Shown one piece after another: positions 180 through 22,025 of a DNA stretch of 23,819 nucleotides; within the stretch, counting starts at the first letter, position 1; each line of letters starts with the position of its first letter. Source of the DNA: Thermoproteota archaeon (lineage in GTDB: Archaea; Korarchaeota; JAOZGF01; JAOZFZ01); assembly GCA_027492035.1 (NCBI GenBank), contig JAOZFT010000026.1, positions 1-23,819 on the forward strand, given 5' to 3'. The translations under genes were made by a program, and so were the position numbers. The notes under the pieces are model-generated. The model worked only from the letters and a program-made list of their open reading frames with translations. It did no database searches and was not told where the DNA came from.

Positions 180-728
180 TCATGTATTCAATTTTACTTT
201 ACTAAGTTCAGCGGCTCCTACAGCGTAAAGTGTCTTCAGCCTCTTAACACCATTAACTTGTTTAATAATTTTAACTGCTTCAGATGGCAAAAGTTTTTCC
301 CAGTTTCCTTGTTTAACCATTAACTCCCTTATTTTCTCTCCATTTAACCTCTCTCTTTGTTTGAAAGGTATAGGTTCCACTTTAACCGAGCTTTTTTCAC
401 ATAGTAATTTAACGAATGCGTTATTAGTGAAAACTACCTCGAAGGACGGTAAATAATTTTTTAGATACTCAATCCAGAGAGAATTGTTTGGGATATTGTT
501 TAATGGAACAATATAGACGTTTATGTTTAGATTTTTCAGTGAATCATGAATCATTTGAATTCTTTCCCCTGCTGTGAAAGGGTCTTGAAGTGTAAAGTTG
601 TACTGGGCAGCCATAACACCTACTATAACTTCTTTTGACTTTGTCAAGATATATTTGATTGCATGGAGATGACCGTTATGGAAAGGCTGGAATCTTCCAG
701 GGAAAAACACCCTCTTATACTGTTTCAA
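180..728 (-). CDS. nadM: Nicotinamide-nucleotide adenylyltransferase, archaeal NadM type
   Basis: This cytoplasmic enzyme joins NMN and ATP to give NAD and pyrophosphate. The N-terminus carries the nucleotidyltransferase signature GRFQPFHNGH (residues 11-20), whose two histidines bind the nucleotide phosphates. A late NGEKIRELM stretch (about 129-137) corresponds to the second nucleotide-binding motif of the family (ISGTxIR-like). At 182 residues the length is normal for archaeal NadM. The start is TTG at 728, preceded by GGGGAGGGTGT inside the end of the upstream gene; start and upstream stop overlap as TTGA, so translation is probably coupled. It is the last gene of a leftward run, after the CinA-domain gene. 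A separate nadE lies in the same window. Confidence 0.93.
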   Translation of the reverse strand: MKQYKRVFFPGRFQPFHNGHLHAIKYILTKSKEVIVGVMAAQYNFTLQDPFTAGERIQMIHDSLKNLNINVYIVPLNNIPNNSLWIEYLKNYLPSFEVVFTNNAFVKLLCEKSSVKVEPIPFKQRERLNGEKIRELMVKQGNWEKLLPSEAVKIIKQVNGVKRLKTLYAVGAAELSKVKLNT

Positions 729-1561
729 ACACCCTCCCCTTGCTGAAATTTAATTTTTTGGGAGGAAGTACTTCTTATCTTCATTTTCATGATTTCTTGT
801 TTAAGAAGTTTTTCAGCTTCTTCTAAGGTTTCAACTGCTTCTTTCCCTGGTAATTTTTCTGCATACAGTACAACGTTCATTTTTAATGTTTCCCCGAACC
901 CTTGAGGATAAGATTTAACCTTTAATTTTGGAAATTCCTTCATTATTTTCCTTAAAATCGGTGCAAGTGCTGATTCATCCTTAATTTCAACTTGGATTTC
1001 TTTCTGAATAAATGCTTTCTTCGCTTTAAAAAACCCTCTCTTTGTTTGAATAAAGTTTTCGAAAACATAGATCATTTCAGCGGGTACTCCCGGTAGATTA
1101 ATCAATTTCTTGTTTTTCACTGTTAACAAGACACCAGGAGCCACCCCTATTTTGTTAATCAACGGTTTCGAGTTTTGAGGCAGTAAAGCCATTTTCTTTC
1201 TCGACCGAGTTAAATTTTTTGAACTAATGAGCCCATGTTTGAAGAGGTAATTCAATCTTTCTTCCACCATTTTTAAGGCTTCTTTGTTTAGTTCCAGTTT
1301 CCTTTTCGTGGCTAAGGAGACAGCTTCTAGAGTTAGGTCTCCTGGAGTTGGTCCAAGTCCCCCGGTTGTGATTACTAAGTCGTATTTGCTGAGGAATTCC
1401 TTTATTTTGTTTTTTATGGTGTCTAAATTGTCTTTAACAACAGCTATTTCCTCCAGTTCAACATTTAAACTTGTTAACCTTTTAGCTAACCAATGTGAGT
1501 TATAGTCTAGGGTTCTTCCTGAAAGGATTTCATCGCCTACCACTATTATTCCTGCTTTCAC
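725..1561 (-). CDS. CinA N-terminal/MoCF-domain protein (COG1058 type)
   Basis: This is a molybdopterin-binding-fold protein of the CinA/COG1058 family. Visible motifs are GDEILSG near residue 9 and TTGGLGPTPGDLT at 65-77. In most relatives the second motif has two acidic residues (DD) where this one reads GD. The deamidase domain found at the C-terminus of bacterial CinA is absent; 278 residues fits the shorter archaeal form. Members of COG1058 have been linked to ADP-ribose pyrophosphatase activity, which would fit an NAD-metabolism role beside nadM. The start is GTG at 1561, overlapping the serA stop as GTGA; the 3' end overlaps nadM by 4 bases. The family is certain; the substrate is inference. 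Confidence 0.85.
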   Translation of the reverse strand: MKAGIIVVGDEILSGRTLDYNSHWLAKRLTSLNVELEEIAVVKDNLDTIKNKIKEFLSKYDLVITTGGLGPTPGDLTLEAVSLATKRKLELNKEALKMVEERLNYLFKHGLISSKNLTRSRKKMALLPQNSKPLINKIGVAPGVLLTVKNKKLINLPGVPAEMIYVFENFIQTKRGFFKAKKAFIQKEIQVEIKDESALAPILRKIMKEFPKLKVKSYPQGFGETLKMNVVLYAEKLPGKEAVETLEEAEKLLKQEIMKMKIRSTSSQKIKFQQGEGV

Positions 1562-2580
1562 TTCATTCTTCCCTGCTCTTCCTTTTTGAAAAAGTTGATT
1601 ATTTTTTCAGTCATTACTAAACCTGCTTGTTTCTGGGCTTCTTCGGTTTTTGCACCTATATGGTGGGTGCACACCACGTTTGGAAGTGAAGTTAAAATTT
1701 TTAGGTGTGGAGGGCCTTTGAATGGTGGTTCATAACTGTAAACATCTAGTCCTGCCCCACTTATTTTGTTGTTAAGTAAAGCTTTCGTTAACGCTTCTTC
1801 GTTTACTACTTCTCCTCTCGAAGTATTTATTACTATAGCTTCCTTTTTCAACATGTTTATTTCTTTTTCGCCAAGTAAATTCCTTGTTCCCTTTGTTAGG
1901 GGAACATGGATGGTTATTATGTCAGAAGTTTGAAGAAGTTTCTTTGGCAGCTTCAGTCCTTCCATTTTATCTTCAGGTTTTAACTCTATAAAGGAGATGC
2001 TGTTTACCTTTTCAAACTCTAAGTTTCTGTAAATGTCGTAGTATTGAACCTTCATACCGAAACTTAGGGCTAGTTTAGCCACTTTCTTACCTATTTTTCC
2101 AAGCCCTATTATCCCTATTGTTTTCCCGTTTAATGTGTGGAGGAGGCTTGTTTTTATTTGTCTCTTAAGCCAAAGTCCCTCCTTAATTGATGAATTAAAT
2201 AAAGGAATCTTTCGGTAAAGGGAGAGGGCTAGAGCTATCACTAATTCAGCTACGGAGTTGAAAATCGCCTCCGCTTCTGTTGTGTTTTCAACTTTCACCC
2301 CCTTTTGTTTTGCATGTTCAAGATCTATGTTGTCTAACCCAAGGCCAGGTCTTCCAATGTATTTCAAGTTTGAAGCTGCATCTATTGCTTCTTTATTTAC
2401 TTCTGTATTGCTTCTAACTATTAAAACGTCTGGGTTTATTTCTTTAAGTGTCTTAACAAGTCCTTTCCCTTTATTTATCTCCTCTATAGGGGTGAAAACT
2501 ACATTTTTTTGACCGAAGAAGCCCCTAAGCTTTTTTAAGGCTTCTTTATGGACTGGTTCAGTAATTAAAACTTTAACCAT
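1558..2580 (-). CDS. serA: D-3-phosphoglycerate dehydrogenase (D-2-hydroxyacid dehydrogenase family)
   Basis: It probably oxidises 3-phosphoglycerate to 3-phosphohydroxypyruvate with NAD, the entry step of phosphorylated serine synthesis. Numbering from the start chosen here: NAD-binding GLGKIG at 159-164, catalytic Arg255 in NTSRGE, Glu284 in SYEPP and His307 in THHIGA. There is no C-terminal ACT domain, so this is the short form, with a small insertion of roughly 20 residues after the nucleotide-binding region. An ATG six codons further upstream keeps the frame open, but GAAGAGGT lies about 7 bases before the ATG at 2580, so I prefer that start. The gene follows the aminotransferase by 27 bases and overlaps cinA by 4. 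Other 2-hydroxyacids are possible substrates, but the neighbours favour phosphoglycerate. Confidence 0.88.
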   Translation of the reverse strand: MVKVLITEPVHKEALKKLRGFFGQKNVVFTPIEEINKGKGLVKTLKEINPDVLIVRSNTEVNKEAIDAASNLKYIGRPGLGLDNIDLEHAKQKGVKVENTTEAEAIFNSVAELVIALALSLYRKIPLFNSSIKEGLWLKRQIKTSLLHTLNGKTIGIIGLGKIGKKVAKLALSFGMKVQYYDIYRNLEFEKVNSISFIELKPEDKMEGLKLPKKLLQTSDIITIHVPLTKGTRNLLGEKEINMLKKEAIVINTSRGEVVNEEALTKALLNNKISGAGLDVYSYEPPFKGPPHLKILTSLPNVVCTHHIGAKTEEAQKQAGLVMTEKIINFFKKEEQGRMK

Positions 2581-2607
2581 TCCATAAACCTCTTCCATGT
2601 TTATTTT

Positions 2608-3831
2608 TTAAATTTCATTTATGTGTTTCATGTTTTTTTCAAGTATTTCCTGGGCTTTGGTTATTCCTTCACCTTCCTTAAATTCATGCTTAAGTTCTTT
2701 CAAGGTTAGTTCCAAAGCTGAAATGGTTTTGAGCACGTGACGTGGATAAATGAAGCCCATATGCCCTATCCGGAAAATTTTACCGAATAAATCAACTCTT
2801 TTGTCCTTTGTTACATTCCACGACTGTCCCTTAGCCACCAATACACCATACCTTTTCAGGGTTTCCCTCAAGGCCTTGTCCCTCTTCTTTTTTAGGGAAA
2901 TGTTTAATTTCTCAATTTCTTGAGGAATTGTTAGAGGGGGTATTTCAACAGAGGTGACTGTTTTTGAAGCTACTTTATCTTCGACAAAAAGGTTTAGGTT
3001 TAATGCTTTAACAGCTTCCCTGACCATTTCTTGACAAATTTGATGCCTCTTTATTCTGTTACTTAACCCTTCTTCAAAAACAAGGTTTAGGGACTCATTT
3101 AATGCATAGATCATGTTTATTGCTATAGTGAATGGTGTTTGAGGATGTTTTTGTTTGTAGTTTTGGAGGTTAAGGTAGTAGGGTTTGGATTTCTTTTTTT
3201 CAATTACTTCCCAAGCTTTTTCACTGACTGTTATAAAAGATAAACCTGGAGGTAGAGCTAAACATTTCTGTGAACCTGCAAAGCAAATATCTATATGTCT
3301 TTTATCAACTTCTACATTGTCCCCTCCCAGTGAGGACACAGTGTCAACAATAAACAATGCTTCATGTTCCTTAACTATTTCACCTACTTCCTTTACAGGA
3401 TTTACTGAACCTGTTGAGGTGTTGTTATGAACCATTGTAACAGCTTTAAATTCTTTTTTATCAAGTTTCTCCCTAACTTTTTCAGGATTAACAATTCCTC
3501 CTGGCTCCACATCAACTACTTCAGGTTTCCCGCCATAGTTTTCCACTATTTCCTTTAGTCTAGAACTGAATTTTCCTGAAACAACACATAAAACATTGTC
3601 ACCTTTATTTACAACGTTTGAAACAGCAGCGTCCATAGCGGATGTCCCGCTCCCAGTAAGGATGAAGACGTCATTCTTTGTTTCAAAAACTTTTTTCAGT
3701 CCTTCGTAACAGTTTGAAAGCAGAACAGTGAATTCTTCTTCCCTGTGATGAACCAAAGGCTTTGACAGTGCCCTCAAAATTTTTTCAGGCACAAAAGTGG
3801 GGCCAGGAGTCATTAACAATAACTTATTCAA
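2608..3831 (-). CDS. Class V aminotransferase, probable phosphoserine or serine/alanine-glyoxylate type
   Basis: A PLP-dependent aminotransferase of the alanine/serine-glyoxylate family. MTPGPTFVP at the N-terminus and the PLP-lysine motif GSQKCLALPPGL (Lys about residue 189) are diagnostic; TGSGTSAMDAA is the phosphate-binding region. Archaeal members of this class have been reported to transaminate 3-phosphohydroxypyruvate, which suits its place between serA and the kinase-like gene. It is longer than usual (about 407 versus about 380 residues), with a Lys-rich insertion near residue 320 and an extended C-terminus. The frame is open up to a TTG at 3849, but AGGTGAGG lies 6-8 bases before TTG 3831, and a TATA-like box at 3866-3875 would put the transcript start near 3844, so 3831 is chosen. 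Confidence 0.85.
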   Translation of the reverse strand: MNKLLLMTPGPTFVPEKILRALSKPLVHHREEEFTVLLSNCYEGLKKVFETKNDVFILTGSGTSAMDAAVSNVVNKGDNVLCVVSGKFSSRLKEIVENYGGKPEVVDVEPGGIVNPEKVREKLDKKEFKAVTMVHNNTSTGSVNPVKEVGEIVKEHEALFIVDTVSSLGGDNVEVDKRHIDICFAGSQKCLALPPGLSFITVSEKAWEVIEKKKSKPYYLNLQNYKQKHPQTPFTIAINMIYALNESLNLVFEEGLSNRIKRHQICQEMVREAVKALNLNLFVEDKVASKTVTSVEIPPLTIPQEIEKLNISLKKKRDKALRETLKRYGVLVAKGQSWNVTKDKRVDLFGKIFRIGHMGFIYPRHVLKTISALELTLKELKHEFKEGEGITKAQEILEKNMKHINEI

Positions 3832-3864
3832 TCTTTTCCTCACCTTCAAAACGTTATGGATGAA

Positions 3865-3878
3865 TTTTTATAAAAGTT
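3865..3878 (-). promoter_or_regulatory. TATA-like promoter for the aminotransferase gene
   Basis: On the - strand the sequence reads AACTTTTATAAAAA, overlapping the stop of the upstream kinase-like gene. The centre is about 26 bases from a predicted start near 3844, leaving a leader just long enough for the Shine-Dalgarno sequence before TTG 3831. The aminotransferase-serA-cinA-nadM group may therefore be expressed partly independently of the genes upstream. Confidence 0.5.
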
Positions 3879-4860
3879 AAGTTAAGAGGATTTTCGCAAC
3901 ACCTGAAACTTCCTTTATGTCTTCCATTAATTCTTTTTCTGTTTCTCCAGAAAAAATACTGCATGGTTCATTGTAAAACCTTTCTAGTTTTATTCCCTTA
4001 TCCCAAACCCATAAAGTTTTTTCTTTAAGCATTAACCTAATTTTTTCATTTAATTTTTTTTCGGGAACCCTGGTTTGAGCTAAAAAGGGGAGAGGGGTTT
4101 TTACGTTGAATGGTCTCAGGGGTACTGAATGTTTAGTTGTTTTCCTCACAAAAACTCTTTCTGGTTCATTGTTACCCTTCATAGCCACTTCTTTTACTTC
4201 TTTAGGTAAAACTTTGGGGGTAAGTAAAACAGCTAGAACTTTGCCTTTTTTAGCAGTTAATTCTTTTAGAGCTTCTTTTTCGAAGTTAAAATCAAGCCAC
4301 CGTGCAGCTTTTCTCCTGTCCTTTTTAGGTAAGTACTTGTAACCTCTTAAATTAAGTTTTTTCTCTATTTCACCGAATTGCCTGTTTAAACATAAAATAT
4401 TTTCATGGAACCTGGTTTCTTTCCCTTGTACAAGGTAACATTGCCCATTACTAGTTATTATTGCTGTCACAGCCTTTTTTGAATCTAATTCCTTCTTTGC
4501 TTCATCAATGGTTGTTTCGGAAATATTTAGGTTAAGTTCGTTAACAACTTGGAATATTTCTTTAAGTTCTGCCTTTTCACCGCCTAAAACCCTGCACCAA
4601 GTCCCTATTTCAACCCTAAACTTTTTTCCACCTATTAAGTAAGAGGTGTAGTTTACATTGAAGATAGGTATGTAGTTACATCCAAGTTCTTCTAAAGCCT
4701 TTTTCCTATGCATTCCGTCAAGGATAACCCATTTATCTTTGTTTACAGGGGTGGCGGGTACAGGTACAAGTAAAGCGTTTGCTTCATTTATTTCGTTAAC
4801 AAGTTCTTTAACTAATTCAGGGATTATTTCTTCGTGAATGAAAACTTTTCTAATATTCAC
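3877..4860 (-). CDS. SerK-like free serine kinase (ParB/sulfiredoxin-like fold)
   Basis: Likely phosphorylates free L-serine to O-phosphoserine, the activity of Thermococcus SerK and staphylococcal SbnI. The pattern seen matches what I recall of SerK: HE at 9-10 (catalytic Glu region), DGMHRKKALEELG at 48-60 (the ParB-like core), Trp88 in EIGTWCR, and KTTKHSVP at 240-247 near the end of the catalytic part. At 327 residues it is longer than Thermococcus SerK (about 240), with added sequence around 100-200 and about 70 residues after the KTT motif. The only usable start is GTG at 4860 without a clear Shine-Dalgarno; the frame stays open for another 46 codons upstream. It sits between serS and the serine-pathway aminotransferase. 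Whether it uses ADP or ATP cannot be seen. Confidence 0.72.
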   Translation of the reverse strand: MNIRKVFIHEEIIPELVKELVNEINEANALLVPVPATPVNKDKWVILDGMHRKKALEELGCNYIPIFNVNYTSYLIGGKKFRVEIGTWCRVLGGEKAELKEIFQVVNELNLNISETTIDEAKKELDSKKAVTAIITSNGQCYLVQGKETRFHENILCLNRQFGEIEKKLNLRGYKYLPKKDRRKAARWLDFNFEKEALKELTAKKGKVLAVLLTPKVLPKEVKEVAMKGNNEPERVFVRKTTKHSVPLRPFNVKTPLPFLAQTRVPEKKLNEKIRLMLKEKTLWVWDKGIKLERFYNEPCSIFSGETEKELMEDIKEVSGVAKILLT

Positions 4861-4975
4861 TATCTTTATTAATTTTAGTAAATCTTTTTTCTCTTCAGAA
4901 GAAGCTTTTCTTGGCTTCGGAACAACTAAACTATTCCTTTTCTTTTTAATCCCCTCTTTGTTAAGATTAGAAATT

Positions 4976-6337
4976 TTAATCCCCCCTTTTGCAAGGAGTT
5001 ATTACTTCTTTAGGGGCTTTGTTGAAAGGTTCCAAATATTTTCTTAAAACTTTAGGTATTATAACGTTTCCTTCTTCATCTTGGCAGTTTTCAAGGATGG
5101 CTGTTATGGCTCTTGTTGAAGCTATAGCTGTTGAGTTTAAAGTGTGAACGTACCCCCTCTCTCCCTTCTTCGTTATATACCTGATTTTTAGACGATATGA
5201 TTGGTAGTCGGTGCAGTTGCTACATGAAACCATTTCTTTATATTTTCCTTGAGCAGGCATCCAGGTTTCAAGGTCGTACTTTTTTGAAGCAACAGCTCCC
5301 AAATCTCCAGTACAGATGTTAACTACCCTAAATGGTATGTTTAACCCTCTCCAAAGTTCTTCAGCATTATTAATTAATTTTTCATGCCAACTCCAGGATT
5401 CTTCAGGTAAACAAAAAACGAATTGTTCAATCTTATGAAACTGATGGACTCTGAAAATTCCCTTTGTTTCTTTTCCATGTGCACCTGCCTCTTTTCTGAA
5501 ACATGGACTTATCCCGGTGTAGAGGAGAGGTAAATCTGTCTCATTGATTAAATCGTTCATATGTAAAGCTGCCAATGGATGCTCTGAAGTAGCTATTAGG
5601 AATAAGTCCTCATTCTCCACTTTGTAAATTGCTGTTTCAAAATCCTCAAGCGCCACAACCCCTTCGTAAGCGTTTCTTCTTAACATGTAAGGGGGAATAA
5701 CTACCTTAAACCCTTTAGAAGACATAAAGTCTAACCCGTAGAGTAATAAACTTAAATCTAACCAAACTAAGTCGTCAAAAAGGTAATAGAACCTTGAACC
5801 AGCAACCTCAGAGGCTTTCTGAGTGTCACCGCAGCCTAAGTAATTGAATTCATCTGCATGGCCTACCGGTTTTCCCTCAACTATTTCATAGTCAACTTTA
5901 AAGCCCTTAGTTTCCTCCAAAAAATTTTGCAGATGCTCTTTCCAGACTTTATGTTTACCGTAAAACCTTATAGGCACATTTTCTGTTTCATCCTTCCCCA
6001 CAGGGACTTCTTCATGCAAAATATTTGGTATTTTTAGTAAAGCCTCATCCCTTTCTTTTTCAAGTTTCTTGACTTCATTTTCCAAGCTTTTAATCGTGTC
6101 TAAAAGATCCCTAGCTTCTCTGATCTTCTCCTCCCTTTCTTCACCTGTTACCTTGGGTATTTGTCTCGAAAGGACATTGTGTTCATGTTTGAGTTTTTGA
6201 AGTTCAGATATTTTCTTCCTCCAAGAAGTATCAAGTTCAATTGCTTTATCAACAAAGGAAACAGGTAGATCTCTTTGCTTTAAAGACCAAACAATTTTTT
6301 CAGGGTTGTTCCGCAGAAAATAAAGGATACTCCACAT
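4976..6337 (-). CDS. serS: Seryl-tRNA synthetase
   Basis: Charges tRNA-Ser with serine in the cytoplasm. The N-terminal half (about 30-105) is the charged two-helix coiled coil that grips the long variable arm of tRNA-Ser. The class II core carries TSEHP at 250-254, motif 2 (GISPCFRKEAGAHG onward, 275-305) and motif 3 (NSTAIASTRAITAILE, 401-416). This is the common bacterial/archaeal type, not the rare zinc-dependent methanogen type. Length (453) is slightly above average. The start ATG at 6337 follows GGTTGATGAAGAA and a TATA-like box at 6366-6380. It is the first gene of the leftward serine cluster, divergent from the cupin gene. Confidence 0.96.
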   Translation of the reverse strand: MWSILYFLRNNPEKIVWSLKQRDLPVSFVDKAIELDTSWRKKISELQKLKHEHNVLSRQIPKVTGEEREEKIREARDLLDTIKSLENEVKKLEKERDEALLKIPNILHEEVPVGKDETENVPIRFYGKHKVWKEHLQNFLEETKGFKVDYEIVEGKPVGHADEFNYLGCGDTQKASEVAGSRFYYLFDDLVWLDLSLLLYGLDFMSSKGFKVVIPPYMLRRNAYEGVVALEDFETAIYKVENEDLFLIATSEHPLAALHMNDLINETDLPLLYTGISPCFRKEAGAHGKETKGIFRVHQFHKIEQFVFCLPEESWSWHEKLINNAEELWRGLNIPFRVVNICTGDLGAVASKKYDLETWMPAQGKYKEMVSCSNCTDYQSYRLKIRYITKKGERGYVHTLNSTAIASTRAITAILENCQDEEGNVIIPKVLRKYLEPFNKAPKEVITPCKRGD

Positions 6338-11381: not shown

Positions 11382-12500
11382 TCATTTTTGTTTCCTATAT
11401 AAATATTTTATTATTTCTTTCAAATTATTGATTACGTCTTCTGTCTTAGCCATGCCGCCTAAATCTGGGGTTCTTACTTTTCCCTTTTTCAGTTGCTGGG
11501 CTACAGCTTCCTCAATTAATTCACCACCTTTCTCCAGTTCTCTGTCGTTACGTTGCTCAGCTAACCATTCAATCATTAATTTAGCTGACAGAACTGAAGC
11601 TAGAGGGTTTGCTATATGTTTGCCATAAATGTCAGGAGCTGTTCCATGTACAGGTTCAAACATTGCATGTTTATCACCTATGTTTCCAGACGGTGCTAAA
11701 CCCAAGCCTCCTTGTAGAACCGAGGCTAAGTCGGTTATTATGTCGCCGAACATGTTGGTTGTAACCACTACGTCAAATTTTTCAGGTGATTTTATGACTT
11801 GAATAGTCCAAGCGTCTACGTAGCTAAAGTTTTTTTCAACATTTGGGTACTTTTTCCCCACTTCTTTAAAGGTTTCACGGAAAAATAGACACCCTTTTAA
11901 CACATTACTTTTATCTACAATAGTTACTCTTTTTTTACCGTCTAAAGGGGCACCTTTCCTCTTTAGAGAGACTTGAAAAGCTTTTTCAATTATTCTTTCA
12001 CATCCCTTCCTTGTTATGATCCTTACGTCTACTGCTTCCTCTTTCTTTGACCCTCTCTTAAGTTCTCCACCGACTTGCACATACAATCCTTCAGTGTTTT
12101 CTCTTACAACAACAAAATCTATTTCCGCTGGCTTTTTTCCTTTAACAGGGATGTCTACTCCAGGGTAAAGTTTTACAGGCCTTATGTTTGCGTAGAGATC
12201 TAAATCAAATCTTAGTTTCAGTAGAGTTTTTATCCCTACCAGGTTTCCGTCCGGGTAAACAGCTTTAGGCCACCCTACTCCACCAAAGAACACTGCATCA
12301 TTTTTCTTCGCGACGTCAATTAGATCTGCAGGAGCTTCTTCACCTGTTTCCAACCAATGTTGACCACCTATTTCAAGCTCTGTAAAGTTGAAAGAAAAGG
12401 CTTCAAAGAGGTCTTCAAGCAATGTTAAAATTTTCAGTGTTTCAGGGATAACTTCCTTACCTATCCCATCCCCTGGTAAAACAAGTATTTTGTAATTCAT
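11382..12500 (-). CDS. leuB: 3-isopropylmalate dehydrogenase
   Basis: An NAD-dependent beta-decarboxylating dehydrogenase producing the keto precursor of leucine. [10 protein letters not shown] at the N-terminus, [20 protein letters not shown] and the signature [28 protein letters not shown] are all present, followed by [10 protein letters not shown]. At 372 residues it is longer than many archaeal Leu[14 protein letters not shown] and [10 protein letters not shown] resemble the tartrate/D-malate dehydrogenase branch, so a broader substrate range is possible. It follows leuD by 16 bases, and GAGG stands 8 bases before its ATG. It is the last gene of leuC-leuD-leuB, which makes isopropylmalate the likely substrate. 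Confidence 0.9.
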
Positions 12501-12516
12501 TTCTTTTTCCTCTTCC

Positions 12517-13026
12517 TTATTTAGACAGTTTAGAAACTTCTCTTTTTGTTCGTAAGTATTTTATGAGGCCACCTGCCTTGATTATCTCCAGTGCATAGCT
12601 ACTGAGGGGTTCAGCTTTAAACACTTCATTCCTTGTTATGTTTCTTATTTCTCCAGTAACTAGGTTTACTTCTGCTTCGTCGAAACTTTTGAATTTTTTA
12701 CTTATTCTTTGACAAGTTAGGACAGGAAGAGCTAAGTTTATAGCATTTCTGAAAAAAATCCTAGCTACACTCTCAGCTACTATAGTTTTCACTCCTGCAT
12801 ATTTTAAAGCTAAAGGGGCGTGCTCCCTGCTTGATCCTCCTCCAAAGTTTCTGCCTGCCACCAGAATTACTCCCTCCCTTGCTTTCTCTAGGAATTTTTT
12901 ATCCACTGTCTCCATTGCGTGTTCAGCTAACTTGTAGGGGTTATTGATCACTAGGTATCTGCCAGGAATTATTAAGTCAGTGTTTACGTTATTTCCATAA
13001 ACCAAGACTTTCCCTTTGATTTTCAT
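12517..13026 (-). CDS. leuD: 3-isopropylmalate dehydratase small subunit
   Basis: The swivelling small subunit of isopropylmalate isomerase. VNTDLIIPGRYL near residue 15, the conserved GRNFGGGSSREHAP around 58-71 and SVARIFFRNAINLALP define the family; 169 residues is typical of archaea. The substrate loop reads YLVI. As I recall, methanogen homoaconitases carry YLRT there and isopropylmalate isomerases YLV, which supports the leucine assignment. The ATG overlaps the leuC stop (ATGA), so the two subunits are translationally coupled. Confidence 0.93.
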   Translation of the reverse strand: MKIKGKVLVYGNNVNTDLIIPGRYLVINNPYKLAEHAMETVDKKFLEKAREGVILVAGRNFGGGSSREHAPLALKYAGVKTIVAESVARIFFRNAINLALPVLTCQRISKKFKSFDEAEVNLVTGEIRNITRNEVFKAEPLSSYALEIIKAGGLIKYLRTKREVSKLSK

Positions 13027-14291
13027 TTCAAATACCTCCTCGGATCTGTTATTTCTCCATTAATTGCTGAAGCTGTAACTGTGAGGGGGGAAGCTAAGTA
13101 AATGTAAGCTTTCGGACTTCCCATTCTTCCCCTGAAATTCCTGTTTGATGAACTTATTGCTACTTCTCCTGCAGCCAGTAAACCTACGTGGCCCCCTATA
13201 CATACTGTACAGCCTGGATTAGTTACTATTGCACCTGCTTTCAAAAGAGTTTCAAGTACCCCTCCCCTTTCCATTTCTAAATATATTTTTCTTGAAGCTG
13301 GTGAGACTATAAACCTTACTTTCCTGTCTATTTTTCTTCCTTTGAGCATTTTAGCTGCTAACTCCATGTCTTTAAGTCTTCCATTTGTACATGAACCGAG
13401 GAACGCTTGGTTTATGGGTACTCCTTCAACTTCGTTTACAGATTTGATGTTATCAACTGCATGGGGAACTGCAACTTGTGGTTCTAAGTTTTCAATATTA
13501 AACTTTATTTTTTCATCATATTCAGCTTCGGGGTCGCTTTTTAAAGGTTTAACTGGGAATTTTGCTCTTCCTTTTAAGTATTGAATAGTTTTTTCGTCTG
13601 GTTCAATTATTCCTGCCTTCGCCCCCATTTCAACTGCCATGTTTGAAATGGTCATTCTTTCACTTACATCCATTTCTTTAACGGTTTCACCTTTGAACTC
13701 CACTGATTTGTAGTTAGCTCCTTCAGCTCCTATTTCACCTATGACGTGAAGTATAATATCTTTACTTGTTAAGTAATTTTTCTTTTTTCCCTCTATCTTT
13801 ATTTCCATTGTTTCAGGCATTTTAACCCATAGTTCACCTGTAGCTAAAATTGCTGCTAGATCTGTATGGCCTATACCTGTCGAAAAAGCGCCCAGGGCTC
13901 CATAGGTCGTTGTATGCGAATCTCCTCCGACTATAAACATTCCAGGTGAAATATAGCCTTTTTCTGGAAGGATTTGGTGACAGATTCCCTCCCCTACGTC
14001 ATAGAAGTTTTTTATCCCTTGCTGTTCCACAAACTCCCTTATTTTCTTTTGGTTTTCAGCTGCTTGAATTGAGCTTGGAGGAGACTGATGGTCAAATACA
14101 ACAATTATTTTTTCGGGGTTCCACACTTTGTCTTTCCCTATTTCTTTCAGTAAATTGATTGCAGGCAAACCTGTTATATCATGCATCATAACCAGGTCAG
14201 GTTTAGCGAAATAGATTTCTCCCTTTTCAGGTTTATTCACACCTGTAGCTTTTGAGAGGATTTTCTCTGTTAATGTCCTTTTCCCAAGCAT
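13023..14291 (-). CDS. leuC: 3-isopropylmalate dehydratase large subunit
   Basis: The aconitase-family [4Fe-4S] subunit that, with LeuD, isomerises 2- to 3-isopropylmalate. The three cluster cysteines are Cys301 (GSCTNGR), Cys361 and Cys364 (NPGCTVCIGGH). Early motifs include DHQSPPS, VGGDSHTTTYGALGAFSTGIGHTD and EMGAKAGIIEPD. The 422-residue length is that of the archaeal/two-subunit form. The ATG at 14291 lies only about 24 bases from the centre of a TATA-like box (14311-14319) and has no well-placed Shine-Dalgarno, so the mRNA may be leaderless. It heads the leuC-leuD-leuB operon, just downstream of ilvC. Confidence 0.94.
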   Translation of the reverse strand: MLGKRTLTEKILSKATGVNKPEKGEIYFAKPDLVMMHDITGLPAINLLKEIGKDKVWNPEKIIVVFDHQSPPSSIQAAENQKKIREFVEQQGIKNFYDVGEGICHQILPEKGYISPGMFIVGGDSHTTTYGALGAFSTGIGHTDLAAILATGELWVKMPETMEIKIEGKKKNYLTSKDIILHVIGEIGAEGANYKSVEFKGETVKEMDVSERMTISNMAVEMGAKAGIIEPDEKTIQYLKGRAKFPVKPLKSDPEAEYDEKIKFNIENLEPQVAVPHAVDNIKSVNEVEGVPINQAFLGSCTNGRLKDMELAAKMLKGRKIDRKVRFIVSPASRKIYLEMERGGVLETLLKAGAIVTNPGCTVCIGGHVGLLAAGEVAISSSNRNFRGRMGSPKAYIYLASPLTVTASAINGEITDPRRYLK

Positions 14292-14310
14292 TTCTTTACT
14301 TAACCCCTTA

Positions 14311-14319
14311 CTTTATAAG
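14311..14319 (-). promoter_or_regulatory. TATA-like promoter of leuC
   Basis: The - strand reads CTTATAAAG, a few bases past the end of ilvC (stop at 14324). Its distance to the leuC ATG predicts transcription starting at or next to the start codon. Confidence 0.5.
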
Positions 14320-14323
14320 TCTT

Positions 14324-15301
14324 TTATTTTATCTTGGCCAATTTACGTATTTTAGAGCCTACTTCCTCAATTTCATGAGAAGAAATTTTTTGGAGAAGTT
14401 TCTCCAGTGTTTTTCCGCCACTTTCGTACTCTTTAACCCATTCCTTAGCGAAGCTACCGTTTCTAACTTTTTCAGCTGCTTTCTTCATGCTTTCTTTCAC
14501 GTGTTCATCTAGAACTTGTGGGCCTACTTTTAAGCCTCCATATCTTGCAGTTACACTTACAGAATTCAGCATGCCTGTGAACCCTCTTGAGTAGATTAGA
14601 TCCATTATAAGTTTAGCTTCATTTAAAACTTCAAAGTAAGCCACTTCCGGTTGATAACCCAGCTCTGTTAACACCTCAAACCCTTTTTTTATGAGTTCTA
14701 TTAAGCCTCCAACTAGAACTGCTTGTTCACCTATTAAGTCTGTTTCTGTTTCTTCCTTGAAGGTTGTTTCAATTAAACCTACTCTGGCTGAACCTATTGC
14801 CTTCCCTATTTCTAAAGCCTTTTCCTTAGCTTTTCCTGTGTAGTTTTGATGAACAGCGATAAGTGAAGGGACACCGAACCCTTCAAGGTAATTCCGCCTC
14901 ACTACAGCCCCTGGCCCTTTTGGTGCAACCATGAATACATCCACGTTTTCAGGGGGGGTTATCAGGTTGTAATGTATGGCGAAACCATGTGCAAAGCAAA
15001 GAGCTTTACCTTCTGAGAGATTGGGTCCTATTTCACCCTTAAAAACTTTGCTTTGAACCATGTCAGGGATTAGAACTAAAATAACATCCCCTTCCTCAGT
15101 GGCCTCATTAACTTTCTTGACTTGAAACCCTTCTTTTTCGGCTTTACTCCATGACTTCCCTTTTCTTAACCCTATTATTACGTTTAAACCGGAGTCTCTC
15201 ATGTTTAAGGCTTGAGCCCTTCCTTGGCTTCCGTAACCTATAACGGAAACCGTTTTGTTTCTAAGAATATTTGTTTGAATGTCTTCTTCCCTATAAATCA
15301 T
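14324..15301 (-). CDS. ilvC: Ketol-acid reductoisomerase
   Basis: Converts acetolactate (or acetohydroxybutyrate) to the dihydroxyacid in valine, isoleucine and leucine synthesis. It has [13 protein letters not shown] (nucleotide binding), a [15 protein letters not shown] specificity loop, [13 protein letters not shown] and the metal-binding [12 protein letters not shown]. The short C-terminal knotted domain makes it a class I enzyme (325 residues). Basic and serine residues in the specificity loop favour NADPH. The frame is open six codons further to a TTG, but GGAAGGTGATC lies just before the ATG at 15301, making that the true start. A TATA-like ACTTTAAATG is at about 15355-15364 on the same strand. 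Confidence 0.96.
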
Positions 15302-15319
15302 TTTTAGATCACCTTCCAA

Positions 15320-17851: not shown

Positions 17852-18784
17852 GTGAATTGCAAACAATACATTAAAGTTTTTTCCCCGGCTTCAATAGCTA
17901 ACGTCGGCCCAGGATTTGACACTTTTGCTTTGGCTTTAGAAGGATTAGGGGACACAATTGAAGTCTTCAGGGTAGATGGTGACACTATAGAAGTAATTGT
18001 GGAAGGGGAACATTCCCAACATGTTCCGAAGAACTGGAAATTAAACAGTGTAGGGGGGGTTATCCAGTATTTTAAAAAGAAATACGGATTTAAGGGAGGG
18101 CTTAAAGTAAAGGTAGTGAAAGGGGTACCTGTTGGGAAAGGGCTAGGTTCCTCCGGTGCCTCTGCAGCAGGGATAGCTTATGCCTTAACAAAGATTTTCA
18201 ATTTAAAAATAACGGATAGGGAACTTGTTAGGTTAGCAGCAGAAGGTGAAAGAGTGGTTTCCGGTTCAGCGCACCCAGACAATGTTTCAGGCTCCCTTTT
18301 TGGCGGATTCGTTATAGTGACTCCTGAATTGAATGTTCTGAAACTGAACCCACCGGAGATGGAGATAGTTATAGGGATCCCTGAATTAAAAAACCAAAGA
18401 AACAAAACAAGGAAAGCTAGGCAAGTTATACCTAAAAAAATAAAGCTTGAGCATGCTGTGAAAAATATAGGCTATGCTTCAATGGTAACGGCTGCTGTTA
18501 TCTTAAATAAACCAGATTTATTCGGAAAAAATTTGCTTGACTACTTAGCTGAGCCGCACAGGTCAGAATCAATACCTGGCTACAAAGAATTAAAAAAGGA
18601 ACTAATGAAAAACGGAGCCTACGGTTGTGCAATAGCAGGAGCTGGACCTTCAATTTTCACTATAGGGAAAAATAGTGGAGAACTTAGAGAAATAATTAAA
18701 AGAAAATTTGAAGAACAAAACATTAAGTGTAAAGTTATGGTTACAAAGCCCAGTTTAACGGGAGTTAAGGAAATTAAAGGGTGA
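17852..18784 (+). CDS. thrB: Homoserine kinase
   Basis: A GHMP-family kinase that phosphorylates homoserine for threonine synthesis. The N-terminal SPASIANVGPGFDTFALAL, the ATP-binding GVPVGKGLGSSGASAAG (91-107) and the C-terminal AGAGPSIF are characteristic. Residues around SAHPDNVSGSLFGG match the homoserine-kinase subgroup rather than mevalonate kinases. The 310-residue length is standard. The start is GTG at 17852, preceded by GAAGGTG; there is no other start codon nearby in frame. It is followed directly by thrC, whose ribosome site overlaps the thrB stop. Confidence 0.94.
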   Translation: MNCKQYIKVFSPASIANVGPGFDTFALALEGLGDTIEVFRVDGDTIEVIVEGEHSQHVPKNWKLNSVGGVIQYFKKKYGFKGGLKVKVVKGVPVGKGLGSSGASAAGIAYALTKIFNLKITDRELVRLAAEGERVVSGSAHPDNVSGSLFGGFVIVTPELNVLKLNPPEMEIVIGIPELKNQRNKTRKARQVIPKKIKLEHAVKNIGYASMVTAAVILNKPDLFGKNLLDYLAEPHRSESIPGYKELKKELMKNGAYGCAIAGAGPSIFTIGKNSGELREIIKRKFEEQNIKCKVMVTKPSLTGVKEIKG

Positions 18785-18789
18785 AAAAA

Positions 18790-20067
18790 ATGTCAAGCTA
18801 CTTGAAATGCATTGATTGCGGGAGGGAATACAGTATAGAAAAGGTAAGGTTTAGATGTGAATGCGGGGGTTTATTGGAAGTAATCCATGGATTTGGAAAC
18901 GAAGTTTCAAGGAAGATTTTCGATGAAAGAAGGAAGATATGGAATTCTTTTTTGAACAGTGGAGTGTGGAGGTTCAAGGAATTAGTTCATCCATTAATTA
19001 AAAAAGAAGACATTGTGTCAAAACAGGAAGGGAACACAAACATTTACTTCCATGAAAAATTGTGTAGGTATGTAGGGATAGAGGAGTTTATGGTTAAACA
19101 TGAGGGAGAAAACCCAACCGGGTCATTTAAGGATAGAGGAATGACTGTCGGGGTGTCAGAGGCAAAAAGACTGAAAAACAAAGTAGTTGCATGTGCATCA
19201 ACCGGAAACACTTCAGCCTCTTTAGCAGCTTACGCTGCAACAGCAGCAATGAAATGCATAGTTTTTATACCTAAAGGAAAGGTAGCATATGGGAAGCTTT
19301 CACAAGCATTAGCTTACGGGGGTAGAGTGTTAGAGATCAATGGAAATTTCGATTTCGCCATGAAATTAGTTCAAGAAACCAGTAAAAAACTAGGTCTGTA
19401 TTTACTGAACTCAGTAAACCCATGGAGACTGGAGGGACAGAAGACAATAGTTTTTGAATTGATTCAACAACTAAACTGGGAACCACCCGACTGGATAATT
19501 GTCCCAGCTGGAAACTTAGGAAATACTTCAGCTTTCGGGAAAGCACTTAAAGAAATGAAAGAGCTAGGTTTAATAGAAAAAGTTCCTCATCTAGCCTCTA
19601 TACAAGCTGAAAAATCATCCCCTTTCTATGAAACATGGAAGAAAAAATCAAGTAAGCTATTGGTGGTAGAAGAGCCTGAGACAGTGGCCACAGCTATTAG
19701 AATAGGTAATCCTGTAAATTGGAAAAAGGCTTTAAAAGCAATAAAGTACACAAAGGGAGTAGTTGAAAAAGTTACAGACCAGGAGATAATGGATGCCAAA
19801 GCAGTAGTTGACAGTTGCGGAATAGGTTGTGAACCTGCTTCAGCTGCATCTATAGCTGGAGCTAAAAAATTAAGGGAGAAAGGGGTTATTGAAGAAGGAG
19901 ATAAAGTAGTGAGCATCTTGACAGGGCATTTGCTTAAAGACCCTGACTCCACAATGAATTACCACAGAAACAAGCTTCCAGGAATAGAACCCAGATTCTG
20001 CAATACACCTGTTTCTTTACCGAAAGAAGTAAATGAAAACAAACTTAGAGAAGTAATTTTCAGCTAA
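18790..20067 (+). CDS. thrC: Threonine synthase
   Basis: A PLP enzyme turning O-phosphohomoserine into threonine. It begins with a zinc-ribbon-like pair of motifs (Cys7/Cys10 and Cys23/Cys25), as in the shorter archaeal and plant-like synthases. The PLP lysine is in NPTGSFKDRGM (Lys114), and ASTGNTSASLAAYAA binds substrate. The frame also has GTG at 18781, but GGGTGA (18779-18784, overlapping the thrB stop) is 5 bases before ATG 18790, so this start is chosen. It is the second gene of thrB-thrC-eno, which makes the phosphohomoserine substrate clear. Confidence 0.95.
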   Translation: MSSYLKCIDCGREYSIEKVRFRCECGGLLEVIHGFGNEVSRKIFDERRKIWNSFLNSGVWRFKELVHPLIKKEDIVSKQEGNTNIYFHEKLCRYVGIEEFMVKHEGENPTGSFKDRGMTVGVSEAKRLKNKVVACASTGNTSASLAAYAATAAMKCIVFIPKGKVAYGKLSQALAYGGRVLEINGNFDFAMKLVQETSKKLGLYLLNSVNPWRLEGQKTIVFELIQQLNWEPPDWIIVPAGNLGNTSAFGKALKEMKELGLIEKVPHLASIQAEKSSPFYETWKKKSSKLLVVEEPETVATAIRIGNPVNWKKALKAIKYTKGVVEKVTDQEIMDAKAVVDSCGIGCEPASAASIAGAKKLREKGVIEEGDKVVSILTGHLLKDPDSTMNYHRNKLPGIEPRFCNTPVSLPKEVNENKLREVIFS

Positions 20068-20082
20068 GGGAAGGGAAGGACT

Positions 20083-21405
20083 ATGAATAGCGAAAAATTT
20101 AAAATAGAGAAGATAAAGGGCCGATGGATACTTGATTCCAGAGGAAACCCCACAATTGAAGTTGAAGTTCGTACAAAAAAAGGGATAGTGGGGTTAGCTT
20201 CTGTTCCAAGCGGCGCCTCCACAGGTAAATTTGAAGCTTTAGAACTTAGAGATGGTGGAGAAATGTTTCATGGAAAGGGAGTATTCAAAGCAATAAAGAA
20301 CATTGAAGAAGTAATAGCGCCTGCTTTAAAAGGAAAAAATGTACTGGACCAAAAAGAGATAGACGAAGAAATGATTAAGCTTGATGGAACAAAAAACAAA
20401 TCAAAACTAGGTGCAAATGCCATACTTGGTGTTTCACTCGCCATTTCAAGAGCTGCAGCTAATACGTTAAAAACTCCACTCTATAAATACTTACAAAAAC
20501 TTTTTAAGGGTGATTCTAAGGAGGAATACATCCTTCCTTTACCTTTAAGCAACGTGTTTAACGCAGGGAAACATGGAGGAAGCAAGTTAGAGATTCAAGA
20601 GTTCATGTTGGCACCTATAGGAGCCAATAATTTCCATGAAGGTTTAAGGTGGCTAAGTGAAGTTTATCAGACATTAAGAAGTTATTTAGTGGAGAAGTAC
20701 GGAATGCTTACTAGAAATGTGGGGGATGAAGGAGGGTTTTCTGGTCCATTAAACACCGTAGATGAAGTTATGGATGCATTAGTTAACTCTGTTGAAGAAT
20801 CAGGGTATACGTTACCTAAAGACTTTGTTTTAGCGATAGATTCTGCAGCAAGTGAGTTTTATAACGGGAAAGAATACATTGTAGAGGGGAAAAAACACTC
20901 AACAAAAGAATTAATTGATTATTATGTTGAATTAACTAGGAAGTACCCTTTAGCTTCAATTGAAGACCCTTTTGATCAGGAAGACTGGTCAGGTTTCATT
21001 GAATTAACAAAGAAGATAGGAGGAAACGTTCAGGTAGTAGGGGATGACCATTTAGTTACAAACATCGAAAGGATTAAGAGAAGCGTTGAACTGAAATCTT
21101 GCAACTCACTGCTTTTGAAGGTGAACCAAGTAGGGACATTAACTGAAGCTTTAGAAGCAGCTAGATACTCATTAAAGAATAAATACTCCGTTATTGTAAG
21201 CCATAGAAGCGGAGAGACTGAGGATTCTTACATTTCTGACTTAGCAGTAGGTATAGGATGTGGACAAATTAAAACAGGTGCACCTGCAAGAGGAGAAAGA
21301 ACCGCAAAATATAATCGTTTACTCAGGATAGAGGAAAGAGAAAAAGGAAGGACACGGTACGCAGGTCCCAATTTCTTATCTCCTCTGTTTTTCAGTAAGC
21401 ATTAA
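20083..21405 (+). CDS. eno: Enolase
   Basis: Interconverts 2-phosphoglycerate and phosphoenolpyruvate. All hallmark sites are present: GASTGKFEALELRDG, KLEIQEFMLAPIGA, GDEGGFSGPL, SIEDPFDQEDW, GDDHLVTN, KVNQVGTLTEA (catalytic Lys), SHRSGETED and IKTGAPARGER. At 440 residues the length is typical. ATG 20083 follows GGAAGGAC and lies 15 bases after thrC, so it is probably the third gene of the threonine operon. Pairing a glycolytic gene with threonine synthesis is unusual, though both draw on central carbon. Confidence 0.97.
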   Translation: MNSEKFKIEKIKGRWILDSRGNPTIEVEVRTKKGIVGLASVPSGASTGKFEALELRDGGEMFHGKGVFKAIKNIEEVIAPALKGKNVLDQKEIDEEMIKLDGTKNKSKLGANAILGVSLAISRAAANTLKTPLYKYLQKLFKGDSKEEYILPLPLSNVFNAGKHGGSKLEIQEFMLAPIGANNFHEGLRWLSEVYQTLRSYLVEKYGMLTRNVGDEGGFSGPLNTVDEVMDALVNSVEESGYTLPKDFVLAIDSAASEFYNGKEYIVEGKKHSTKELIDYYVELTRKYPLASIEDPFDQEDWSGFIELTKKIGGNVQVVGDDHLVTNIERIKRSVELKSCNSLLLKVNQVGTLTEALEAARYSLKNKYSVIVSHRSGETEDSYISDLAVGIGCGQIKTGAPARGERTAKYNRLLRIEEREKGRTRYAGPNFLSPLFFSKH

Positions 21406-21464: not shown

Positions 21465-22025
21465 TTAGAGTGTACCACGATAATTTTTCGTAGCGGGACA
21501 CCCTAAACATTTTTTTGTGTGGTACCTATCACATTTTGAGCAGTTCGCTCCACAGGGAGCAACATCACTTTCTCTAGTGAAAGGAAGAACAATTGGCACA
21601 AAGTCAGGATATATTACATCTCCTACGCACACTTCAGATTTCCTTATTCCCTTCTGGGTCCTTATTGAACAAATGTCAACTATGCTTCTTAAGGTGTCTA
21701 TATCTTCTGCAAACATTAAGACAAGCAGGTTATGTCTTCCGGTGACGTTTGCAACAAAAAAGGTTCGTGGGCATTTATTAAAGATGTTAAGTAATTCTTT
21801 TAATCTTTTAAATGTTTCAACCTCAACTAAAACAGCAGCAATCCTCAACTTAAGTTTGGAGAAATTTAGTTGAGGGTAAATTCTTAATACTCCCTTATTT
21901 ATTAGGTTTTCAAGTCTTTTTTTAACAGCTACGTGTGAAATATTGAATTTTTTCCCAAGTTCTGTTAATGTCATTCTCCCATTTTTTTGAAGCTCTATGA
22001 TCAATTGTTTATCTTTTTCATTCAT
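21465..22025 (-). CDS. Lrp/AsnC-family regulator with C-terminal Cys-rich (DUF3795-like) domain
   Basis: Residues 1-50 are the Lrp helix-turn-helix (LIIELQKNGRMTLTELGKKF, then ISHVAVKKRLENLINKG). Residues 55-150 form the ligand-binding RAM-like beta-alpha domain. The end adds Cys158, Cys162, Cys165, Cys173 and Cys176 in APCGANCSKCDRYHTKKCLGC. This resembles the small cysteine-rich DUF3795 family and could bind zinc or a metal cluster. Most Lrp proteins end before this point (about 150 residues). ATG 22025 has GGTGA 7 bases upstream. The gene is convergent with eno and has a perfect palindrome at its own promoter, suggesting autoregulation. The effector and targets are unknown. Confidence 0.85.
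   Translation of the reverse strand: MNEKDKQLIIELQKNGRMTLTELGKKFNISHVAVKKRLENLINKGVLRIYPQLNFSKLKLRIAAVLVEVETFKRLKELLNIFNKCPRTFFVANVTGRHNLLVLMFAEDIDTLRSIVDICSIRTQKGIRKSEVCVGDVIYPDFVPIVLPFTRESDVAPCGANCSKCDRYHTKKCLGCPATKNYRGTL

Follow-up and report, generated by a model that had tools for sequence, protein, structure and literature searches.

A conserved korarchaeal gene block joins seryl-tRNA synthetase to a divergent candidate serine kinase, a class V aminotransferase and SerA

The window analyzed here, a stretch of 23,819 nt, comes from a korarchaeal genome of 1.87 Mb in 42 contigs. On its minus strand, running from 6337 to 1558, lie four adjacent genes encoding a seryl-tRNA synthetase (SerRS), a protein related to free-serine kinases, a class V aminotransferase and a D-3-phosphoglycerate dehydrogenase (SerA) (Table 1), as the preliminary description had recognized and as the open reading frame coordinates and family models now confirm. 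Counting from serS, the genes are separated by 115, 27 and 9 nt, and the four are presumably co-transcribed. The serS product is a standard SerRS, scoring 501 bits against TIGR00414 (cut-off, 302). Beyond serA follow two NAD-related genes, one of the CinA/NMN deamidase type and one for an NMN adenylyltransferase, each with a 4-nt overlap; the CinA-related gene is probably co-transcribed with serA, although it is not a member of the conserved block. Elsewhere in the window (11382-15319 and 17852-21405), we read from the sequence leucine/isoleucine genes (IPMDH, LeuD, LeuC, IlvC) and a homoserine kinase-threonine synthase-enolase run, and positions 21465-22025 encode an Lrp/AsnC-type regulator with a cysteine-rich C-terminal tail (CGANCSKCDRYHTKKCLGCP).

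Table 1. Genes of the leftward run, with protein identities to G001 (Thermoproteota archaeon Flange_M5_B4)
Gene or product	Coordinates	Strand	Identity in G001	Remarks
serS, seryl-tRNA synthetase, first gene of the block	4976..6337	-	73%	TIGR00414 above cut-off
SerK/SbnI-like candidate free-serine kinase	3877..4974	-	39-40%	listed from GTG 4860, 327 aa; from probable ATT 4974, 365 aa
class V (AGXT/PucG-like) aminotransferase, candidate phosphoserine:2-oxoacid aminotransferase	2608..3849	-	65%	PF00266; PDB 3isl, 2dr1
serA, short D-3-phosphoglycerate dehydrogenase	1558..2598	-	57%	TIGR01327 best model; PDB 1wwk best; IVRS/GRPGLGLDN arginines
CinA/NMN-deamidase-related protein	725..1561	-		NF002291; 4-nt serA overlap; outside the conserved block
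archaeal nicotinamide-nucleotide adenylyltransferase	180..728	-		NF002243; same leftward run; outside the conserved block

Comparison of gene order in related archaea, one of the tests set in advance for this cluster, showed that it is conserved beyond the window's genome. The same order and orientation, serS-kinase-aminotransferase-serA, recur in G001, which belongs to another genus of the same family (L020 7497-12314, where L020 is contig JAOZFL010000169.1), with protein identities from 39-40% for the kinase to 73% for SerRS (Table 1). The flanking genes are different: a cupin gene and the CinA-like gene in the window, and an MgtE-like membrane protein and a mevalonate-kinase-like gene, as read from the sequence, in G001. 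The CinA/NMN-deamidase-related gene was not found downstream of serA in L020. Because the four genes are kept together in two genera while their flanks change, chance is an unlikely explanation of the gene order and a functional link is indicated; the four-gene block looks selected. In a third genome (G015, locus L106), an aminotransferase-SerA pair with 54% identity to that of the window sits at a contig edge, cut at the expected position of the kinase. In other korarchaeal genomes, both the aminotransferase (about 32%) and the SerA encoded next to it are more distant, and the phylum search of these genomes returned no full-length SerK-like protein, only short matches of about 75 residues. 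A contig scan with a single kinase-like sequence gave zero matches, and the G001 record was the sole match when a two-sequence kinase profile was used. In one group of these korarchaeal genomes (L110:4438-5778 and L112:6459-7799), SerA-like proteins that precede an aminotransferase gene carry a 185-aa N-terminal extension, for which no Pfam or PDB match was found.

The kinase-like protein is a very divergent, distant relative of the free-serine kinases, with predicted serine kinase activity. It scores 60.8 bits (E=1.1e-16) against NF053625, the model of the ADP-dependent L-serine kinase SerK, and 49.9 bits (E=2.7e-13) against the SbnI model, short of the equivalog cut-off of 380 and the cut-off of 350, respectively. 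Pfam yielded zero families at E<=0.001, ParB_N reaching just E=0.046. When the single sequence was compared with solved structures, the best match was SbnI, through the N-terminal domain (E=1e-8), and SerK was also matched; with a two-sequence profile, the matches to SerK structures improved to 5e-8 to 4e-6, and the C-terminal motif was aligned as well. Identity to SerK-like proteins is about 30%, and hhalign against four such proteins from another archaeal phylum gave a probability of 99.2% over 229 columns. According to the passage of PMC9641203 that cites Verstraete 2018, Glu20 and Asp58 are needed for the kinase activity of SbnI; counted along the printed alignments, these residues align with E10 and D48 of the window protein, and the counterpart of Glu20 in SerK is residue 30. 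The C-terminal TT[KR]H motif is also kept, as KTTKH in the window and KTTRH in L020, aligned to KTTRH of SerK. In both the window and G001 the protein ends in a conserved extension of about 65 aa with the pattern LWxWDxGxxLxRxYxEPxSIF. An AlphaFold model built from the two-sequence alignment was unusable (pLDDT 34, pTM 0.23). The features that define ParB partition proteins were not found: ParB_N scores 14.2 bits against a gathering threshold of 26.3, there is no HTH match, and the nine genes annotated between 180 and 9138 include no parA-like gene. Homology bears out the enzyme assignments made at the outset, including the connection with Thermococcus SerK; both the substrate and the phosphate donor of the kinase are inferred.

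The position of the listed start codon, GTG 4860, differs between the window and G001, and it is the in-frame sequence upstream that stays conserved (window 4860-4976, L020:8877-8981). The upstream peptides, VPKPRKASSEEKKDLL in the window and VPSPRIADEDEKKDII in G001, align with a local score of 51, reached in 0 of 2000 shuffles. Because the frame is conserved upstream of the GTG, the kinase gene is probably longer than listed and its start probably lies upstream. This stretch contains no ATG, GTG or TTG in either genome; in both, a G-rich stretch is followed by ATT and then TCT shortly after the stop codon of serS (ATT at 4974 with GGGGGG in the window; ATT at L020 8888 with GAGGGGAGG or AGGGGAGG). 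The simplest reading of the two sequences is perhaps an AUU start coupled to termination of serS, with ATT 4974 as the candidate, though frameshifts elsewhere in the same genome, in a SerB-like gene and in glyA, call for caution about the start. We also considered a SerS-kinase fusion produced by frameshifting and rejected it: the gaps of 115 nt (window) and 104 nt (G001) place the kinase in the +1 frame with respect to serS in the window and in the +2 frame in G001. A bolder proposal is that the protein represents a kinase subfamily of its own, extended at both termini, possibly with an AUU start coupled to serS termination, and that it is made only when SerRS is translated, thereby dividing serine between tRNA charging and carbon metabolism; we regard this as distinctly unlikely.

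The aminotransferase belongs to PF00266 (E=9e-30), and among solved structures it is closest to PucG (3isl) and 2dr1, the latter annotated as a hypothetical serine aminotransferase. Its top scores are with aminotransferases of glyoxylate, pyruvate and purine catabolism rather than with SerC models; against TIGR01364 and TIGR01366 it reaches 51-57 bits, below cut-offs of 402-444. Since the SerC cut-offs are not reached, phosphoserine is proposed as its substrate from gene context. Other class V enzymes have also been assigned phosphoserine transamination in archaea, so a phosphoserine transaminase function is possible without a SerC-level score. For SerA, the best model is the phosphoglycerate dehydrogenase (PGDH) model TIGR01327 (E=4e-79); the score falls below the model cut-off, as expected for a short SerA measured against a model of 525 positions. 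The best solved structure match is the PGDH 1wwk. Alignment with 1wwk and korarchaeal relatives shows that SerA has both PGDH-motif arginines, in IVRS and GRxGxGLDN, together with the Arg/Glu/His catalytic residues, as looked for in a short-type SerA; in such enzymes these residues have phosphate-side and catalytic roles. In the most distant korarchaeal SerA-like proteins, those of G007 and G014, the second arginine is absent.

Gene identities here rest on homology, and order and residues are conserved between genomes. With these in hand, the reading that we consider fairly probable is that the block is a serine-use operon, converting serine through O-phosphoserine and phosphohydroxypyruvate to 3-phosphoglycerate and also supplying phosphoserine for cysteine. 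SerRS would direct serine into protein, while the SerK/SbnI-like protein would phosphorylate it to O-phosphoserine. The class V aminotransferase would then convert phosphoserine to 3-phosphohydroxypyruvate, and SerA would reduce the latter with NAD(P)H to 3-phosphoglycerate, which would enter lower glycolysis or gluconeogenesis. Phosphoserine would be the branch point, from which a CysK-like enzyme could take a share for cysteine synthesis, as is the case in Thermococcus and in some Desulfurococcales. Both the substrate of the aminotransferase and the direction of flow are presumed. The preliminary description left the direction open in its statement that the flow could run either way, and established biochemistry weakens this. 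Phosphorylation of serine with ADP or ATP, if these are the donors used, is downhill, and SerA favors reduction to 3-phosphoglycerate; running the kinase in reverse to produce serine would be thermodynamically unfavorable. Given the placement of the kinase with these partners, serine to 3-phosphoglycerate is the simplest direction. Counting against the serine-use reading, the kinase falls far below the equivalog cut-offs of SerK and SbnI and has only about 30% identity to SerK-like proteins, and the aminotransferase gets its top scores outside the SerC models.

The genome inventory bears on the opposite direction. It was claimed at first that no phosphoserine phosphatase is seen, which is true of the window but fails for the genome, where the search for serB found phosphoserine phosphatase (PSP)-like HAD genes. 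One of these, at L102:3656-4327, scores above the cut-off of TIGR01491, the archaeal PSP-like model, and has an intact relative in G001. In the second, SerB-like HAD gene, at L101:3999-4612, the first motif (VVFDMESVLINGE) is in a different frame from the remainder, which reflects an assembly error or a decayed gene; glyA (G000:C9:441543-442737) likewise seems to be broken in two, its first part forming a short frame by itself, and the assembly may therefore contain indel errors. Given the PSP-like genes, SerA and the aminotransferase could also act in biosynthesis: the two would make phosphoserine from 3-phosphoglycerate, the HAD phosphatase encoded elsewhere would release serine, and the kinase would return surplus serine to phosphoserine for cysteine. 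The cysteine genes agree with such a scheme and with the serine-use reading alike. The genome encodes CysRS, GlyA (frameshifted) and a CysK-like protein, and the CysE models gave no match above the family cut-off in the genome, only weak matches far below. T. kodakarensis, moreover, uses both directions, as set by supply. However, the phosphatase lies outside the block, and a kinase with SerA and the aminotransferase as neighbors would oppose net serine synthesis, so we judge a biosynthetic serine operon rather unlikely. The CysK-like protein (L104:6194-7204) has insertions relative to standard CysK, the reference to which it was aligned; phosphoserine-type CysK is defined by insertion sequences and by a basic residue at the position of Arg297 in A. 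pernix CysK. A SepRS route was rejected, since a genome search found nothing above the cut-off (the sole match to the SepRS model scores 57.6 bits against 381).

Two further alternatives concern what the ParB-fold protein does. It could be a nucleotide-binding (CTP or ATP) regulator or switch of the operon, in the manner of SbnI regulation, rather than a metabolic kinase. SbnI is annotated as both regulator and kinase, the C-terminal extension has no assigned role, and a SerK-like archaeal fusion bound CTP, not ATP, in a 2025 survey (PMC12704722). Yet the catalytic Glu/Asp pair and the TT[KR]H motif are conserved, the ParB_N score is marginal, and the neighboring genes encode precisely the two enzymes that come next on the phosphoserine route, all of which make a regulator very unlikely in our estimation. 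Alternatively, the block could encode a non-phosphorylated route of the serine-glyoxylate type, in which the aminotransferase would yield hydroxypyruvate and the dehydrogenase glycerate, with the ParB-fold protein phosphorylating some other substrate. Among solved structures, the aminotransferase is indeed nearest to enzymes of purine catabolism and to serine-glyoxylate/pyruvate aminotransferases, and hydroxypyruvate reductases belong to the dehydrogenase family, but for SerA the top-scoring models and structures are those of PGDH, and neither PGDH arginine is lost. We give this route hardly any credence.

The steps of the proposed serine-use operon have a precedent. In Thermococcus kodakarensis, a route from serine to 3-phosphoglycerate was proposed from gene disruptions, with the same three steps assigned to SerK (TK0378, ADP-dependent), SerA (TK1966) and an aminotransferase (TK1548), in addition to phosphoserine-dependent cysteine formation. 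The catalytic Glu and Asp and the TTRH-type motif are common to the SerK family and the window protein, which is longer (327-365 aa, against 242 aa in solved SerK chains). SbnI of Staphylococcus aureus shares the Glu20/Asp58 equivalents but is encoded in a siderophore operon, has 254 aa and lacks a comparable C-terminal extension, and we know of no link between SbnI and SerA. In the description by Makino et al. (2016, PMC5120207), as far as its account of gene neighborhoods goes, TK0378 lies in no operon with other genes, whereas the window kinase is in a block with serS. Clear-cut SerK homologs are reported there only for Thermococcales and a few Desulfurococcales; Thermococcales show no tendency to cluster, whereas in three Desulfurococcales species (Desulfurococcus mucosus, Staphylothermus marinus and S. 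hellenicus) serK lies near PGDH and aminotransferase genes, as in the window. That description of the Desulfurococcales clusters does not mention serS, and their kinases, from a different lineage, are close SerK homologs, unlike that of the window. Thus, the clustering of the kinase noted in the preliminary description is real, but its association with serA and an aminotransferase, and with it the idea of a serine-kinase cluster, is not new. What is new here is the lineage, a kinase that is longer and far more diverged, the leading position of serS, and the retention of the block in two genera.

A divergent member in a conserved korarchaeal block lends weight to the proposal of an ancient archaeal origin for serine use through phosphoserine, and the four neighboring genes offer a set for joint expression and testing. 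Given the CTP-binding fusion, the window kinase could also help to settle which nucleotides the distant SerK members use. Further SerK-like proteins, of 245-290 aa, are encoded at L115, L116, L117 and L118 in a small archaeal phylum with genomes of 0.6-1.0 Mb, and in L021 one of them runs into the end of a convergent gene that, as read from the sequence, is phosphoglycerate-mutase-like.
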